Shown piece by piece: positions 17,436-34,102 of a stretch of DNA of 64,000 nt. A program made the position numbers and the translations under genes. Position 1 is the stretch's first letter, and each line of letters starts with the position of its first letter. The notes beneath the pieces are model-generated. The model made no database searches. It was not told the DNA's origin and saw only the letters and a list, made by a program, of their open reading frames with translations. This DNA is from Betaproteobacteria bacterium Ga0077523 (GTDB lineage: Bacteria; Pseudomonadota; Gammaproteobacteria; Burkholderiales; Ga0077523): the NCBI GenBank assembly GCA_001464695.1, contig LNDQ01000081.1, positions 1-64,000 of the forward strand. Reading direction: 5' to 3'.

Positions 17436-17525
17436 GCCCCCATCCCTGCCTTCCCCCACCAAAGGTGGGGGAAGGGGTGTACACCCCCTCCCCCGGCATT
17501 GCCGGGGGAGGGTTGGGGTGGGGGC
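17436..17525. repeat. Dispersed palindromic intergenic element in a 350-bp gap
   Basis: Left end gcccccatccctgccttccc, right end gggggagggttggggtgggg; inner hairpins ccccaccaaaggtgggg and ccccggcattgccgggg around ggtgtacacc. The remaining gap (17274-17435 and 17526-17623) shows no convincing gene or RNA. Confidence 0.85.
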
Positions 17526-21897: not shown

Positions 21898-23478
21898 TTA
21901 GCCTGCGGGCGCCGCTACCGCCCCGCCGTGCTCGTGATGCTCGACCGGCTTCGGCGAAGCCGTCGCGTACTTGCACGCGAACAGCACGAAGGCCACCAGC
22001 AGATAGCTCAAGGCCACGGTGGGCGACTGGGCGAACCCGATGTGCTCGCCGTGCATGAAACCGAAGAACGTCATGACGGCACCCACCAGGGCGAACGACG
22101 ACGCCTTGACGTACTCGCGCTCGATCAGGAACACGGCGACGGAGCCGAGCACGAGACTGGTCAGGATGGCACCACCGCCCAGCACTTCGAGCCCGTGGTA
22201 CAGGATGCCCACCTGCCCCAGCTTGTCGAAGCCAACCGCGGCAGCACTCGTTCCGGCCGCGCCGAGCGCATTGTCGATCTGCAACTTGCCCCAGGCAGCC
22301 ACGTGCGGCACGAGCGTCAGAATGACAGCCGGCGCATGGCTCTTCGGCGTTTCCTGGAAGGCCTGCGCTCCGATCAGCATACCGATGTAGAGCAGGATCG
22401 GCGCGATGGCCACCACGGGGATGAGCGACATCATCACCGCGATGATGCCCAGCCACGACAACAGGATGACCATGATGCCGGTGGCGGCCGAGTACCCGAT
22501 GCGGCCTCCGATCGACTTCCAGCCCGGGTGACCGATGTACACCGCGAGGATGAACGGGTTGCCCATCAGGCAGCCGATGAGGCTGATGAACCCGTCTGCG
22601 GTCAACACACGCGTGGTCGGGAAACTGTCGCCGGCAGCGGAGGCGCTCTCGACGTTGTCGATGGCCTCGACCAGATCGTAGATGCCGAACGGGATGGCGG
22701 TGACCAGGATGATGGCGAGGAACTCGAAGCCCGAGAACACATGGCCGATGGCCGGGATCGGCAGCGAGAAGCCGAAACTCGAGAACGATCCCGCCAGCTT
22801 GTCGAGGCTCATGCCGCCGTAGCTGAATCCCAGGAACGTGGAGCCCCAGGCGACGACCATGCCCACAGCGATCGCCACCAGTCCGGCGGGAATGCCCTTG
22901 TAGTAGCGAACACCGCCGAACCAGCTCGCGATGATGATCGCGAAACACAGGACACCGATGACGGGTGACATGTACATCTCCAGGGCGGGGCGCATGGAGA
23001 TGAAAGCGATCGAAACACCGGCGAGCGTGCCCAGCAGTGCGGCGCGCGGCGTGATCTTGCGGATGTACGGGGCGATGAATCCGCCGGCCATCAGCACGAA
23101 GCTCTGGATGAACACCCACGCAAGTCCCGCCTCCCAGCCCTTGATGGGATCCCCTGTCTTCAGGCTGATCGGCAGGATGATGACGAAGACCACCACGAAC
23201 ATGTGCGGAACGCTGGTGCCCGAGGGCAGCGCGCAGACATCGGACCGCCCCGTGGACTGCGCGAGCTTGTATGCGAGATACGCGTAGTACATCGTGCTCA
23301 TGAAGAGCATCAGTCCACATGCGGGCAGGATGCGTCCGAACACGATGTCGTCGGGCATCTGCACCACGTAGCGGAGCAGCCCCGTCAGCACCAGCATGTT
23401 GACGAGGATGTTGGTGCCGAAACCGAAGAACGCGTTCCAGTCTCCGGGCACCCAGATTGCCGGTTTTGCCGTTGTCAT
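21898..23478 (-). CDS. NCS2-like (uracil/xanthine permease-type) membrane transporter
   Basis: A 526-residue protein with about 12-14 transmembrane segments. The pattern GRSDVCALPSGTSVPHMFVV, followed by repeated hydrophobic spans and GIYDLVEAIDNVESASAAGD, fits the NCS2/AzgA superfamily of nucleobase and xanthine permeases; the group is often annotated just as permease or regulator and the substrate is not secure. The C-terminus ends in a short His/Glu-rich tail (VEHHEHGG). Transcription runs leftwards from a 480-bp gap that holds a palindromic leader (23521-23551). ATG at 23478. No catabolic gene for purines lies next to it. Confidence 0.8.
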   Translation of the reverse strand: MTTAKPAIWVPGDWNAFFGFGTNILVNMLVLTGLLRYVVQMPDDIVFGRILPACGLMLFMSTMYYAYLAYKLAQSTGRSDVCALPSGTSVPHMFVVVFVIILPISLKTGDPIKGWEAGLAWVFIQSFVLMAGGFIAPYIRKITPRAALLGTLAGVSIAFISMRPALEMYMSPVIGVLCFAIIIASWFGGVRYYKGIPAGLVAIAVGMVVAWGSTFLGFSYGGMSLDKLAGSFSSFGFSLPIPAIGHVFSGFEFLAIILVTAIPFGIYDLVEAIDNVESASAAGDSFPTTRVLTADGFISLIGCLMGNPFILAVYIGHPGWKSIGGRIGYSAATGIMVILLSWLGIIAVMMSLIPVVAIAPILLYIGMLIGAQAFQETPKSHAPAVILTLVPHVAAWGKLQIDNALGAAGTSAAAVGFDKLGQVGILYHGLEVLGGGAILTSLVLGSVAVFLIEREYVKASSFALVGAVMTFFGFMHGEHIGFAQSPTVALSYLLVAFVLFACKYATASPKPVEHHEHGGAVAAPAG

Positions 23479-25479: not shown

Positions 25480-25684
25480 CAGACTTGGTCCGTCCTCGCC
25501 GCTGGGCCGCCCGACGGCGCCGGCGCGATCGTGGATTGAATCGACGGTCCGCCACGGCACGTGCAGTTGGGGTAGCCTTCTGCATCCATCCTGGAGGGAG
25601 GTAGCCGGATGTCCGAGGTCAGGCCCACCATCGCCGGTTCTTGCCTGCCGCCTTGCCCGCACGGGGTGCCATGTTGTCGCGACC

Positions 25685-26857
25685 ATGGCTGAGATGAACG
25701 ATCTGCCGCGGCGCCGTTTTCTCGGGCAGATCGCCGCGACTGCGGCGCTCGGCATACCATTGCCGGCCATGAGCGCAACGCCAGACCCCTCGTCCGAATC
25801 CTCGTCCCTGGTCCATCTCGAACAGGATGGACTTTCGTTGACCCCGGCGGAAGCGGCTGCCGAGCTCGCCCGGCTGAGCGCGTCCCAGTCGCCCTCGCCG
25901 GACATCTACGGCCTTGGCGGTGTGGTGGAGGAAGTGGAAGCCTACTTCGCCCGCTTGCTCGGGAAGGAACGCGCGCTGTTCATGCCCACGGGCACGCTCG
26001 CCAACCAGCTCGCGTTGCGCGCGCTGGCGGGCAATCGCCGCCGCGTCCTGGTGCAGGACGTGAGCCACGTCTACAACGACACGGGGGATGCCAGTCAGGC
26101 TCTGAGCGGGCTCACGTTGCTGCCGCTCGCACCCGATCGCGCGACGTTCGCATGGGCCGAGGTGGAGCGCACGCTCGGCCGAACCGCATCCGGACGGGTC
26201 GCGACGTCGGTCGGGGCGATCTCGATCGAATCGCCGGTACGCCGCCGTTACGGCGAACTGTTCGATCGCAGCGAGATGGGGCGCATATGCACGGAAGCGC
26301 GCCGCCGCGGTATCGGGCTGCATCTCGACGGCGCGCGGATGTTCATCGCCTCGGCCTACACGGGCATCGCGCCGGCGGAGTACGCCGCCCCCTTCGACAC
26401 CGTCTACGTGTCGTTGTGGAAGTGCTTCAACTCCCTGAACGGTGCGATCCTTGCCGGGCCTGCTGCGCTGCTGGAGGGTATGGTGCATACGCGCCGGATG
26501 TTCGGCGGCGCCCTGTTCAACGCCTGGCCGTCCGCGATACTGGCTCGGCGCTATGCCGAGGGCTTCGTCGGTCGGTTCGCGTCGGCCATTGCGGTGTTCG
26601 ATCAGTTCCAGCGTGCTCTCGCCGGCAGCACGGTCAGGATCGACAAGGTCACGAACGGCACCAACGTGTTTCGTATGAACGTCAACGACGCGAAGGCCGA
26701 GCAGTTGCCGGAGCGGATGCGGGCGCAGGGCGTCGCGATGCCGGCACCGATCCGCGGGAACGATGGGGCCGTATTCGTGCTCAACGTCAACGAGACCTGG
26801 AACCGTACCACGGGAAGCCGCCTGGCCGACCAGATCCGCCGCAGTCTGGCGGGCTGA
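25685..26857 (+). CDS. Tat-exported PLP enzyme of the threonine-aldolase (beta-eliminating lyase) fold
   Basis: A 390-residue protein. It begins with a twin-arginine signal, RRRFLGQIAATAALGIPLPA, then residues ~75-385 resemble low-specificity L-threonine aldolases: PTGTLANQLALRALAG, DGARMFIASAYTG (the HLDGAR motif), and the PLP lysine in DTVYVSLWKCFNSLNGA. Such enzymes split beta-hydroxy amino acids into glycine and an aldehyde. Export would be unusual, because PLP enzymes are usually cytoplasmic; cofactor would have to be bound before Tat transport. Start ATG at 25685 or 25694. A small GNAT protein gene starts 12 bp downstream, suggesting co-transcription. Confidence 0.8.
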   Translation: MAEMNDLPRRRFLGQIAATAALGIPLPAMSATPDPSSESSSLVHLEQDGLSLTPAEAAAELARLSASQSPSPDIYGLGGVVEEVEAYFARLLGKERALFMPTGTLANQLALRALAGNRRRVLVQDVSHVYNDTGDASQALSGLTLLPLAPDRATFAWAEVERTLGRTASGRVATSVGAISIESPVRRRYGELFDRSEMGRICTEARRRGIGLHLDGARMFIASAYTGIAPAEYAAPFDTVYVSLWKCFNSLNGAILAGPAALLEGMVHTRRMFGGALFNAWPSAILARRYAEGFVGRFASAIAVFDQFQRALAGSTVRIDKVTNGTNVFRMNVNDAKAEQLPERMRAQGVAMPAPIRGNDGAVFVLNVNETWNRTTGSRLADQIRRSLAG

Positions 26858-27225: not shown

Positions 27226-27909
27226 ATGCCGCCTATCGATCTCTCCCACTGCCGCATCCTCCTCACGCAGGCCGACCAGTTCATGGGGCCTGCCCTGCGG
27301 ACGACTCTTGCCGAATGCGGCGCAGACGTCGTAGCGGACACCCGGGCACTGGATGCACCCGAGGCGGCGGCCGCGGCCGTGACGGCCGCAGGGGATATCG
27401 ACGTCCTCCTGGCCAACCTCGCGGTGCCCGCACCATCGACCCCAGCCGCCGACGTCACCGACGCGGAATGGCGGCACGTCTTTGCGCACATGGTCGACCC
27501 GTTGCCGCGCCTGCTGAAAGCCGTGCTGCCGCAGATGCAGGCGCGCGGCCGTGGCCGGTTCCTCGTCATGGGCAGCGCCTCGGCTTTGCGCGGCATGAAA
27601 CGGACGTCCTCATACAGCGCCGCACGGGGAGCGCAGCTCGCCTGGGTGCAGGCAGTCGGCGTCGAGCTGGCGCCGCTCGGCATCCGCGTCAACGCCATCG
27701 CCCAGAATTTTGTCGAGAATCCCACGTACTTTCCGCCCGAGGTGCAGGCGAAGCCTGCGTTCCAGGAACGGCTGAAGCGCGAAGTACCGCTCGGCCGACT
27801 GGTATCCGCACGCGAGGATGCCTTGTTCGCTGCGTACCTGTGCAGCGATGCCGCGGACTGTTTCGTGGGCCAGGCGTTTCCGATCAGCGGCGGTTGGGCC
27901 GTGCGCTGA
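27226..27909 (+). CDS. Halohydrin dehalogenase-like SDR protein
   Basis: A 227-residue short-chain dehydrogenase fold that lacks the cofactor glycine motif TGxxxGxG. In its place it has T14-x4-F19-x-G21 (LTQADQFMG), and the catalytic residues are S117-x12-Y130-x3-R134 (GSASALRGMKRTSSYSAAR). These are the two motifs used to recognise halohydrin dehalogenases (known HheC residues T7/F12/G14 and S132/Y145/R149), in which Arg replaces Lys and the NAD(P) pocket becomes the halide/nucleophile site. The C-terminal half (NPTYFPPEV, then PLGRLV and FVGQAFPISGGW) also lines up with HheC. The predicted reaction is reversible epoxide formation from vicinal halohydrins. No dehalogenation genes are adjacent. 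Confidence 0.85.
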   Translation: MPPIDLSHCRILLTQADQFMGPALRTTLAECGADVVADTRALDAPEAAAAAVTAAGDIDVLLANLAVPAPSTPAADVTDAEWRHVFAHMVDPLPRLLKAVLPQMQARGRGRFLVMGSASALRGMKRTSSYSAARGAQLAWVQAVGVELAPLGIRVNAIAQNFVENPTYFPPEVQAKPAFQERLKREVPLGRLVSAREDALFAAYLCSDAADCFVGQAFPISGGWAVR

Positions 27910-27985: not shown

Positions 27986-28113
27986 GCTGCCCCCTCCCTA
28001 TCCCTCCCCCGGCACAGCCGGGGGAGGGAATGTACTGCGTGTGAATCTCGCGCCGCCAGCATCCCAAGGCACTCCTTCCCCCGGCAACGCCGGGGGAAGG
28101 TTGGGATGGGGGC
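27986..28113. repeat. Dispersed palindromic intergenic element
   Basis: Left arm begins gctgccccctccctatccct; right end is ggggaaggttgggatggggg. Two near-perfect hairpins, ccctcccccggcacagccgggggaggg type and ccttcccccggcaacgccgggggaagg type, flank a 50-bp spacer. It fills most of the gap before the antiporter gene; the rest (28114-28291) shows no gene. Confidence 0.85.
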
Positions 28114-31005: not shown

Positions 31006-31983
31006 CTACCGCGGCGCGTCTGCCTTCAGGAAATCCACCACGGCATCGAAGAATGCATGCCGCCCGGCCTGCAAATGCAGCATGTGCCCGGCACGGGGAA
31101 TGACGACATAGCGCTTGTCGGGGTTCGGCAAGCGCGCGAAGAAGGGCAACAGCCCGGTCGTGTCGGCAACATCGTCGTATTGCCCGTGGATCATCAGCAT
31201 CGGCACTGTGATGCGGGCCGGATCCACCATGGGCAGGCCTGTCACCATATCGAGTTGCGGACCGGTGGAAGTGCGCGTTTCGATCGCCGCAGCGGCATCG
31301 GCATACGCTTCGATCGTCTCGAGTTCGGTAACGTCCGCCGGCGTCCGGGACCGGAAGCGAGCCTTCCAGCCGTCGCGCGGCACGACGATCCACGGCCGGC
31401 TCCGATACAACTCGACATCCGCACGACGGCGCACGATGTCGGGGCTGTCCGCGTGCATCTGCGCGTAACTCACGTAGCGGTCGATCTTGTCGCCGTGGGC
31501 CGAAGCGAAGAGTCCCGCGTACTGCGTGGCCCAGGACCAGGCGAGCACATGGACACGCGCCACGCCGCGCTCGCGCCGCACGGCATCGACGACGGCATCG
31601 AGGTCCTCCGCGGCACCATCGGTGGTGACGTGGCCCTCGGGATGCGTCGAGCGCCCGAAGCCGTGCACATCCAGCGCGAACACGTCGAAGCCCGCACGCG
31701 CGAGGCGGTCCATGAGGCTGTAGTCGCTCCGCCCCGGTACCTCGAGATCGAAACTCTCCTTGCCCGCCGTCGCCGAACCGTGAGCGAGGATCACCACGGG
31801 TTTGTCCGCCGGTGAACCGACGAACTTCTCCCACACATGCAGCCGCAGATCGCCGCGCGCAACCCAATGCGTCGCCGCGAGGACTGCCGCATCCTGGTCG
31901 TCCGCAGCGGCGGCAGCAGTGCACGACAGCATCACGGCGAACAGCAACGCCCACTCGCGGGCCGCCAGCCTGTGGATCATCAT
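31006..31983 (-). CDS. Exported alpha/beta hydrolase with an unusual nucleophile elbow
   Basis: 325 residues: signal peptide (MIHRLAAREWALLFAVMLSC, with TAAAAA cleavage region), then an alpha/beta hydrolase fold. The oxyanion region is VVILAHGSAT; the nucleophile Ser lies in VLAWSWATQYAG, where the usual GxSxG glycines are Ala. The acid is likely in MIHGQYDDVAD and the His in PRAGHMLHLQAG. Substrate unknown; esterase or lysophospholipase-like. MM at 31983/31980 starts the protein; GGGGG precedes. Divergent from the PAS histidine kinase gene, with 133 bp between starts. Confidence 0.8.
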   Translation of the reverse strand: MMIHRLAAREWALLFAVMLSCTAAAAADDQDAAVLAATHWVARGDLRLHVWEKFVGSPADKPVVILAHGSATAGKESFDLEVPGRSDYSLMDRLARAGFDVFALDVHGFGRSTHPEGHVTTDGAAEDLDAVVDAVRRERGVARVHVLAWSWATQYAGLFASAHGDKIDRYVSYAQMHADSPDIVRRRADVELYRSRPWIVVPRDGWKARFRSRTPADVTELETIEAYADAAAAIETRTSTGPQLDMVTGLPMVDPARITVPMLMIHGQYDDVADTTGLLPFFARLPNPDKRYVVIPRAGHMLHLQAGRHAFFDAVVDFLKADAPR

Positions 31984-32116
31984 TCGAAGCAATCCCCCGG
32001 AGTCTCGGTGAAGGGCGCCGGCACCCTGGCGGTCCGCGACCGGCCGCCGCAGGTCCGGCACGACGGGAGGATAATGCGGCTCCCCGCCGCCCGGACCGAC
32101 AGCACCTCTCCCCGCC

Positions 32117-34102
32117 GTGGACCTCGACCAGCTCGATCTCGACCTGTACGCGACCGTGTTCGACGTCGCGCGCATCGGCATCTGCGTGATCGACGAGCAG
32201 GGCAGGTTCGTGCGCGTGAACCCGTTCTTCTGCGAGCTGGTACGCCATCGACCGGAGGACCTGGTCGGCCGCCACTATTCGATGGCTGCCCCGCCCGCGG
32301 TGGTCGCGGTGAAGGAGAAGTTCCTGGCGGCACTGCTCGCCGACTCGTCGAAGGTACCGCTCGAATGGGGCATCCGCCGCAGCGACGGCAGCATCTTCGA
32401 CTCGCTGGTGAGCTTCCGGCCGATCACGCGCGCGGACGGGCGCAAGTTCGCGGTGGTGACGTTCTCCGACATCAGCGAAAGCAAGCGCAGCAAACTGGAA
32501 ATCGAGGCCCTCAATCGCGATCTGGAGCAGCGCATCGCCGAGCGCACCTCCGAACTGACGCAGAAGCTCGCCGAACTGACCGAAGCCGACGAGGCGCTGC
32601 GGCACAGCGAGGAGCGGCTGCAGGCGGCGCTCGCGGAGAAGACCGCGATCCTCGAGCATTCGGTGGTAGGCATCGGGCTGCTGCGCGATCGCCGTCTGGA
32701 ATGGTGCAACCGCATGCTCGAAGAGCAGCTCTTCGGCTATCCGCGCGGCTCGCTGACCGGCAAGAACACCGCGATGCTCTATCCGTCGCGCGACGACTAC
32801 GAACGGCTCGGCGCCGAAGCCTATCCGCTGCTCACGCAAGGCCGCATCTACGAGACGCGCGCCCGCATGAAGCGCAGCGACGGATCGCTCTTCTGGTGTT
32901 TCATCAGCGGCCGTGCGATCCGGCCCGACGATCCGGCCCACGGCAGCATCTGGGTGCTGATGGACATCACCTCGCGGCGCAAGCTCGAGGAGGACCTGCG
33001 CCGCACGCTCTCCGAACGCGAGGCGATCCTGCAGTCGTCCGTCATGGGCCTGGCACTCGTGCGCCATCGCGAATACGTGTGGGTGAACAAGCATTTCGAG
33101 TGCGATCTGCTGGGCTACGAAGAAGGCGAACTCGTGGGTCAGTCGGTGCGGCACACCTACGGTTCAGAGCAGGCGTACGACGAACTCGGACCGCTGATCA
33201 ACCGCCAGCTGGTGGACAAGGGGTTCTTCCAGACCGAAGGTCGCGTGCGGCGCAAGGACGGTTCCACCTTCTGGTGCCTGGTGAGCGGTTGCGCGATCGA
33301 TCGCCGCGACCTCACCGTCGGCACCATCTGGACAGTGGTCGACCTGACCCGGCGCAAGGCCGCAGAAGCCGAACTGGTGGACGCACTCGCGCGCGAGAAG
33401 GAGTTGAACGAGATCAAGTCGCGCTTCGTATCGATGACCTCGCACGAGTTTCGAACGCCGCTCGCGACCATCCTGTCCTCCACCGAGCTGCTGGCCGACT
33501 ACGGCGAGCGCCTCTCGGTACACGAGCGCGCCGACCTGATCGGCGGCATCAAGTCAGCGGTGCAGCGGATGACGCGCATGCTGGAGGACATTCTGCTCAT
33601 CGGCCGCTCGGAGGCCGGGCGGCTCGAGTTTCGTCCCCGGCTGCTCGATCTGCGCGGCCTGTGCGTACGCATCGTCGACGAGACACGCGCGGCCGCCCAT
33701 GCGCAGCAGCAAGTACGCCTGCAGTTCGAAGGTGGTGCCGCCGAGCACGTCGTCGACGAGGAGTTGCTGCAGCACATTCTCGGCAACCTGCTCAGCAATG
33801 CCATCAAGTACTCGTCCCCCGAGTCGGCGATCGACGTCCGCGTGGTCTGCGACGGCGGCGCGATCAGGCTCGAGGTGGAGGACAACGGCATCGGCATCCC
33901 GGTGGAGGACCAGGCGCGACTCTTCGAGACGTTCCATCGCGGCCGCAACGTCAATCACATTGCCGGTGCCGGGCTCGGTCTCGCGATCGTGCGCAAGTCG
34001 GTGGAACTGCACGGCGGACGCATCGCGGTGCGCAGCGTGCCGCGCGCAGGTTCCACGTTCACCGTGGTCATTCCCGAGATCGGCGGCGGGTCGCGTGCAT
34101 AA
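32117..34102 (+). CDS. Soluble PAS-domain sensor histidine kinase
   Basis: 661 residues without transmembrane segments. Three PAS domains follow one another (about 8-120, 172-288, 298-412), with PAC-like ends such as VLMDITSRRKLEE and TVVDLTRRKAAEAE; a coiled-coil linker lies near 125-165. The HisKA phosphoacceptor is His443 in SMTSHEFRTPLAT. The HATPase domain shows NLLSNAIKY, EDNGIGIPVEDQARLFETFH and GAGLGLAIVRKSVELHGG. Start GTG at 32117. It overlaps the next gene by 8 bases, so kinase and receiver are translationally coupled. The signal is unknown; a cytosolic redox or small-molecule cue would fit soluble PAS domains. Confidence 0.9.
   Translation: MDLDQLDLDLYATVFDVARIGICVIDEQGRFVRVNPFFCELVRHRPEDLVGRHYSMAAPPAVVAVKEKFLAALLADSSKVPLEWGIRRSDGSIFDSLVSFRPITRADGRKFAVVTFSDISESKRSKLEIEALNRDLEQRIAERTSELTQKLAELTEADEALRHSEERLQAALAEKTAILEHSVVGIGLLRDRRLEWCNRMLEEQLFGYPRGSLTGKNTAMLYPSRDDYERLGAEAYPLLTQGRIYETRARMKRSDGSLFWCFISGRAIRPDDPAHGSIWVLMDITSRRKLEEDLRRTLSEREAILQSSVMGLALVRHREYVWVNKHFECDLLGYEEGELVGQSVRHTYGSEQAYDELGPLINRQLVDKGFFQTEGRVRRKDGSTFWCLVSGCAIDRRDLTVGTIWTVVDLTRRKAAEAELVDALAREKELNEIKSRFVSMTSHEFRTPLATILSSTELLADYGERLSVHERADLIGGIKSAVQRMTRMLEDILLIGRSEAGRLEFRPRLLDLRGLCVRIVDETRAAAHAQQQVRLQFEGGAAEHVVDEELLQHILGNLLSNAIKYSSPESAIDVRVVCDGGAIRLEVEDNGIGIPVEDQARLFETFHRGRNVNHIAGAGLGLAIVRKSVELHGGRIAVRSVPRAGSTFTVVIPEIGGGSRA

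Follow-up and report, generated by a model that had tools for sequence, protein, structure and literature searches.

A probable D-type halohydrin dehalogenase gene from an uncultured Burkholderiales genus

In this study, we analyzed a 64,000-nucleotide stretch of DNA (the window, on contig C81 of its assembly), and homology indicates that one of its genes in all likelihood encodes a D-type halohydrin dehalogenase (HHDH). The predicted enzyme, from an uncultured Burkholderiales genus, is 67% identical to a crystallised one, and is very probably one more member of a known and fairly common HHDH subtype, useful as an addition to a biocatalysis panel. The gene and its two diagnostic motifs are located as follows:

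27226..27909, + strand: hheD-like gene for a predicted D-type HHDH of 227 aa, assigned from sequence, motifs, tree and fold ranking
27265..27288, + strand: motif 1, T14-x4-F19-x-G21 (codons 14-21), predicted nucleophile (halide) pocket replacing the Rossmann glycine motif
27574..27627, + strand: motif 2, S117-x12-Y130-x3-R134 (codons 117-134), predicted catalytic triad

The reading frame begins with ATG at 27226 and runs uninterrupted to a stop codon ending at 27909. Both motifs that define HHDHs according to PMC4989007 and PMC11976700 were found in the protein, T-X4-F/Y-X-G as T14, F19 and G21, and S-X12-Y-X3-R as S117, Y130 and R134; residue positions and alignment with known HHDHs confirmed the placement of these six residues in the initial annotation. 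The same alignment columns hold T, F, G, S, Y and R in HheD2, 8xxb, HheB, 6a41, HheC and HheA2, the single exception being Tyr for Phe in HheB, and T, G, G, S, Y and K in three short-chain dehydrogenases/reductases (SDRs) of the same genome. The protein departs from the classical SDR pattern (T-G-X3-G-X-G together with S-Y-X3-K), having Phe at the middle glycine and Arg at the lysine. When the 40 SDR-like loci in this genome were read in all six frames, the motif pair turned up at the proper spacing only once, in the window gene. The motif pair is real and not a chance occurrence. Furthermore, all six residues were unchanged in 81 of 81 loci (the window plus the best 80 of 154 relatives), a set picked by similarity to the query, so that this conservation holds within the D-type group and not across all dehalogenases. 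Differences between the window gene and its two nearest relatives, L009 and L010, numbered 11/4/77 and 12/8/92 at codon positions 1/2/3 (227 codons), and this excess at third positions fits a protein under purifying selection.

The suggestion that the gene was hidden among ordinary SDR genes is borne out in the sense that Pfam assigned only adh_short families to the protein and that no NCBIfam family reached its cut-off among the 25 of 181 matches listed. In a phmmer search against PDB, the leading entries were 7b73 (3.6e-94), 8xxb (5.1e-83), HheB (4e-49) and 6a41, named 'dehalogenase' (3.3e-29), and the best plain SDR (2zat, 2e-20) ranked behind the HheD2, HheD8, HheB and 6a41 entries. HheA and HheG scored on a par with plain SDRs, and HheC was absent among the 60 matches listed. 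Entry 7b73 was deposited under the name 'Short-chain dehydrogenase/reductase SDR' and is described in PMC9629495 as HheD2, a crystallised HHDH. According to its title, 8xxb is a triple mutant of HheD8 with chloride; a search of the open-licence literature found no paper for it. Identity to the window protein reached 67.4% for HheD2 and 62.4% for 8xxb (221 residues each), and high identity to verified D-type enzymes of this kind is what marks the D subtype. It was 45.6% for HheB over 217 residues, 33.6% for 6a41, 30.5% for HheA2 and 28.8% for HheC. A review (PMC4989007) states that HHDH subtypes share less than 30% identity with each other, and the value for HheB thus places the B and D types nearer to one another than this rule says. 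The same review, in its section 5, reports that all 19 selected motif-positive enzymes were active.

HheD2 shares all six motif residues with the window protein and is its best fold match, whereas about one third of the residues and the host organism differ. The HheD2 structure is reportedly due to Wessel et al. in 2021. HheD8 likewise has the motifs in common, although, as the title of the entry specifies, the solved chain was engineered at three positions. The triad of HheB (PDB 4zd6) is identical to that of the window protein, but the central position of motif 1 is Tyr in the former and Phe in the latter. HheC (PDB 1pwx) also shares both motifs, but its extended C-terminus is missing in the window protein. 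The alignment by eye with HheC that had been proposed is true but weak, at 28.8% identity over 184 residues, and HheD and HheB are the near kin.

Phylogenetic analysis was based on a midpoint-rooted tree of 25 sequences, including 19 HHDHs and their kin and six SDRs from the same genome. The 19 HHDH-related sequences were separated from the six SDRs at 100/100, with the window protein on the HHDH side, a result that covers the tree as sampled, with E-, F- and G-type sequences left out. Within it, the window protein grouped among the D- and B-type sequences (98/94 and 99/95), adjoining L009; the tree program flagged several long branches, including HheA2, HheC and HheB. A 40% identical protein from another family of the same order (L099 / L142, genome G029), with a T-x4-Y-x-G form of motif 1, fell outside the D- and B-type sequences and possibly represents a deeper HHDH lineage.

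A monomer model of the window protein, built from 46 aligned sequences, had a mean pLDDT of 84.3, with low confidence at residues 161-170 and 211-227 and hence a poor C-terminus. Foldseek ranked HheD2 and HheD8 at positions 1-5, HheB at 6-9 and dehalogenase 6a41 at 10, followed by FabG-type SDRs. The TM-scores were 0.87-0.89 for HheD2 (2.9-3.0 A), 0.87 for HheB (about 2.2 A) and 0.82-0.84 for FabG enzymes, and since the latter lie just below the HHDH values, the fold alone does not discriminate strongly and leaves the function unsettled. Thus, the model supports an SDR scaffold and its Foldseek ranking supports HheD. Taken together, sequence, tree and fold ranking support halohydrin dehalogenase as the enzyme class. 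It might be argued that parallel loss of the cofactor site and of the triad lysine has instead turned an SDR into a pseudoenzyme or binding protein and not into an active dehalogenase, given that Pfam and NCBIfam yield SDR families only and that dehalogenase activity is a prediction. However, the identity to HheD2, the invariance of the six motif residues over the 81 loci and the dominance of third-position differences all speak against such a loss, which we consider highly improbable.

In HheC-type catalysis, Tyr takes the hydroxyl proton of the halohydrin. By homology with HheC, HheB and HheD2, the window HHDH would be a cofactor-free homotetramer in which Ser117 holds the vicinal halohydrin and Tyr130, its pKa lowered by Arg134, accepts that proton. 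The resulting alkoxide would displace the halide to form an epoxide, and Thr14, Phe19 and Gly21 would line the pocket into which the halide departs; in the reverse reaction, an epoxide could be opened with halide, azide, cyanide or nitrite. The roles of the motif residues follow PMC11976700 and PMC4989007, with motif 1 residues lining the halide pocket, Ser and Tyr holding the substrate oxygen and Arg tuning Tyr.

The genes surrounding the predicted HHDH gene are listed below:

25667-26857, + strand: PLP enzyme belonging to the beta-eliminating lyases (Pfam PF01212, 1e-34), with a Tat-like RRRFLGQ signal recognized by eye
upstream of the HHDH gene, 54 bases away, same strand: GNAT-type acetyltransferase (PF14542; Pfam)
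downstream of the HHDH gene: Na/H-exchanger plus TrkA-N protein
31006-32181, downstream of the HHDH gene: alpha/beta hydrolase with a Trp-Ser-Trp nucleophile elbow by eye
downstream of the HHDH gene: PAS histidine kinase

The PLP enzyme noted as a neighbor in the initial annotation is real, and an exported member of PF01212 is, to our knowledge, unusual; its best NCBIfam matches (GntG-family aldolase and low-specificity threonine aldolase) were far under their cut-offs. A functional link between the two genes is not supported by our data. One could imagine that the HHDH acts in one pathway with the PLP lyase and the acetyltransferase, as the genes lie on the same strand and the acetyltransferase frame ends so close to the HHDH frame. 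However, the gene order was kept in only two of nine other loci of the genus (G008 and G009), about 2.5 kb separate the acetyltransferase and HHDH genes in G009, and an operon with the PLP enzyme was rejected on these grounds; a shared pathway has very little chance of being correct. Among the seven loci in which the order was not kept, the flanking sequence is short or present on one side only in three (G004, G011 and G007).

Across the 81 loci, neighborhood frames were called by conservation without a gene finder, and community clustering placed the most widespread neighbor in at most 15 loci. Since the clustering settings had broken the dehalogenase family itself up into singletons and might have obscured another family of very wide occurrence, neighbors were recounted directly: a neighboring protein was matched in at most 12 of the 81 loci when the whole locus was considered, and in at most seven within 3 kb. 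These counts are lower bounds because flanks of 3 kb or longer on both sides are available for just 57 loci. No conserved neighbor of HheD was found in this set, and no pathway can be read from the context of the window gene. Further upstream, a 526-aa protein with many hydrophobic stretches (21898-23478, - strand) was 98% identical in G008 and 95% identical in G009, and had no Pfam or NCBIfam match at 0.001.

We also analyzed the occurrence of epoxide hydrolases, which would be linked to the HHDH gene in a haloalcohol degradation operon. The genome (87% complete) contains one EHN-type enzyme, on contig C32 and thus unlinked to the HHDH gene, and no match to the LEH type. Used as a protein query against the 81 loci, the EHN-type enzyme gave two weak matches only (28-29%, E 1e-5 and 7e-4). 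The alpha/beta hydrolase in the window was considered as a candidate and rejected, its nucleophile being Ser by eye and not Asp. EHN was present in all 12 genomes of the genus, including the two in which HheD was not detected, vs 10 of 12 for HheD; hence, their co-occurrence is uninformative.

The most likely role of the window HHDH in the cell, tentatively proposed here, would be that of a stand-alone enzyme scavenging or detoxifying small halohydrins or epoxides, whose epoxide product the unlinked epoxide hydrolase could take further. A different possibility, which we regard as the less likely course but by no means a negligible one, is that a D-type scaffold performs another job, such as a reaction on an epoxide or vicinal leaving group (nitrite, cyanate and metabolite epoxides being examples), and that dehalogenation is a side activity. 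The review allows other physiological functions for HHDHs and states that just two HHDH genes share an operon with an epoxide hydrolase (PMC4989007). Moreover, no dehalogenation cluster was recognized around the 81 loci, and the HheD gene is near-universal in the genus. On the other hand, detoxifying genes usually lack a linked cluster as well, and no positive evidence points to any particular alternative substrate. It is conceivable, albeit doubtful, that D-type HHDHs, as widespread lone genes in Burkholderiales and relatives that most genomes of the genus keep without a fixed neighbor, have a general task in the cell, for instance the removal of endogenous halohydrins or epoxides, and do not act in pollutant degradation. 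A search of the open-licence literature found no paper on the window gene or on the natural role of D-type enzymes.

With regard to distribution, matches at 1e-40 occurred in 12 of 41 genomes, 10 of the 12 within the genus and two of the 29 outside it. In a scan of species genomes, 154 of 278 pattern matches encode a relative, and the best 80 were retained. The relatives belonged largely to MAGs and isolates of Burkholderiales, Rhodocyclales and other proteobacteria, and several strains of Noviherbaspirillum, which is in culture, were among the carriers. The gene had originally been presented as rare and, in this kind of genome, as new sequence space. Neither view is supported by our data: at least 154 relatives came from a single scan, most genomes of the genus carry HheD, and the D type is an already described subtype, with members named up to HheD38 in the 2016 review (PMC4989007). 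HheD19-38 are given there as 57-95% identical to verified D-type enzymes, and the window protein lies within this span and would thus belong to the known family. The frequency of HheD within the genus, combined with the lack of fixed neighbors, bears on what D-type enzymes do in nature.

Finally, a GC-rich palindrome, CCCCCGGC-NNN-GCCGGGGG, was observed at 28001-28100 (+ strand) and again at 17490, 42336 and 3052. Two copies between the HHDH and exchanger genes form the arms of a larger inverted repeat. Allowing up to two mismatches, the window contains seven matches vs 0.23 expected, and the palindrome resembles a dispersed element of the REP/BIME kind.
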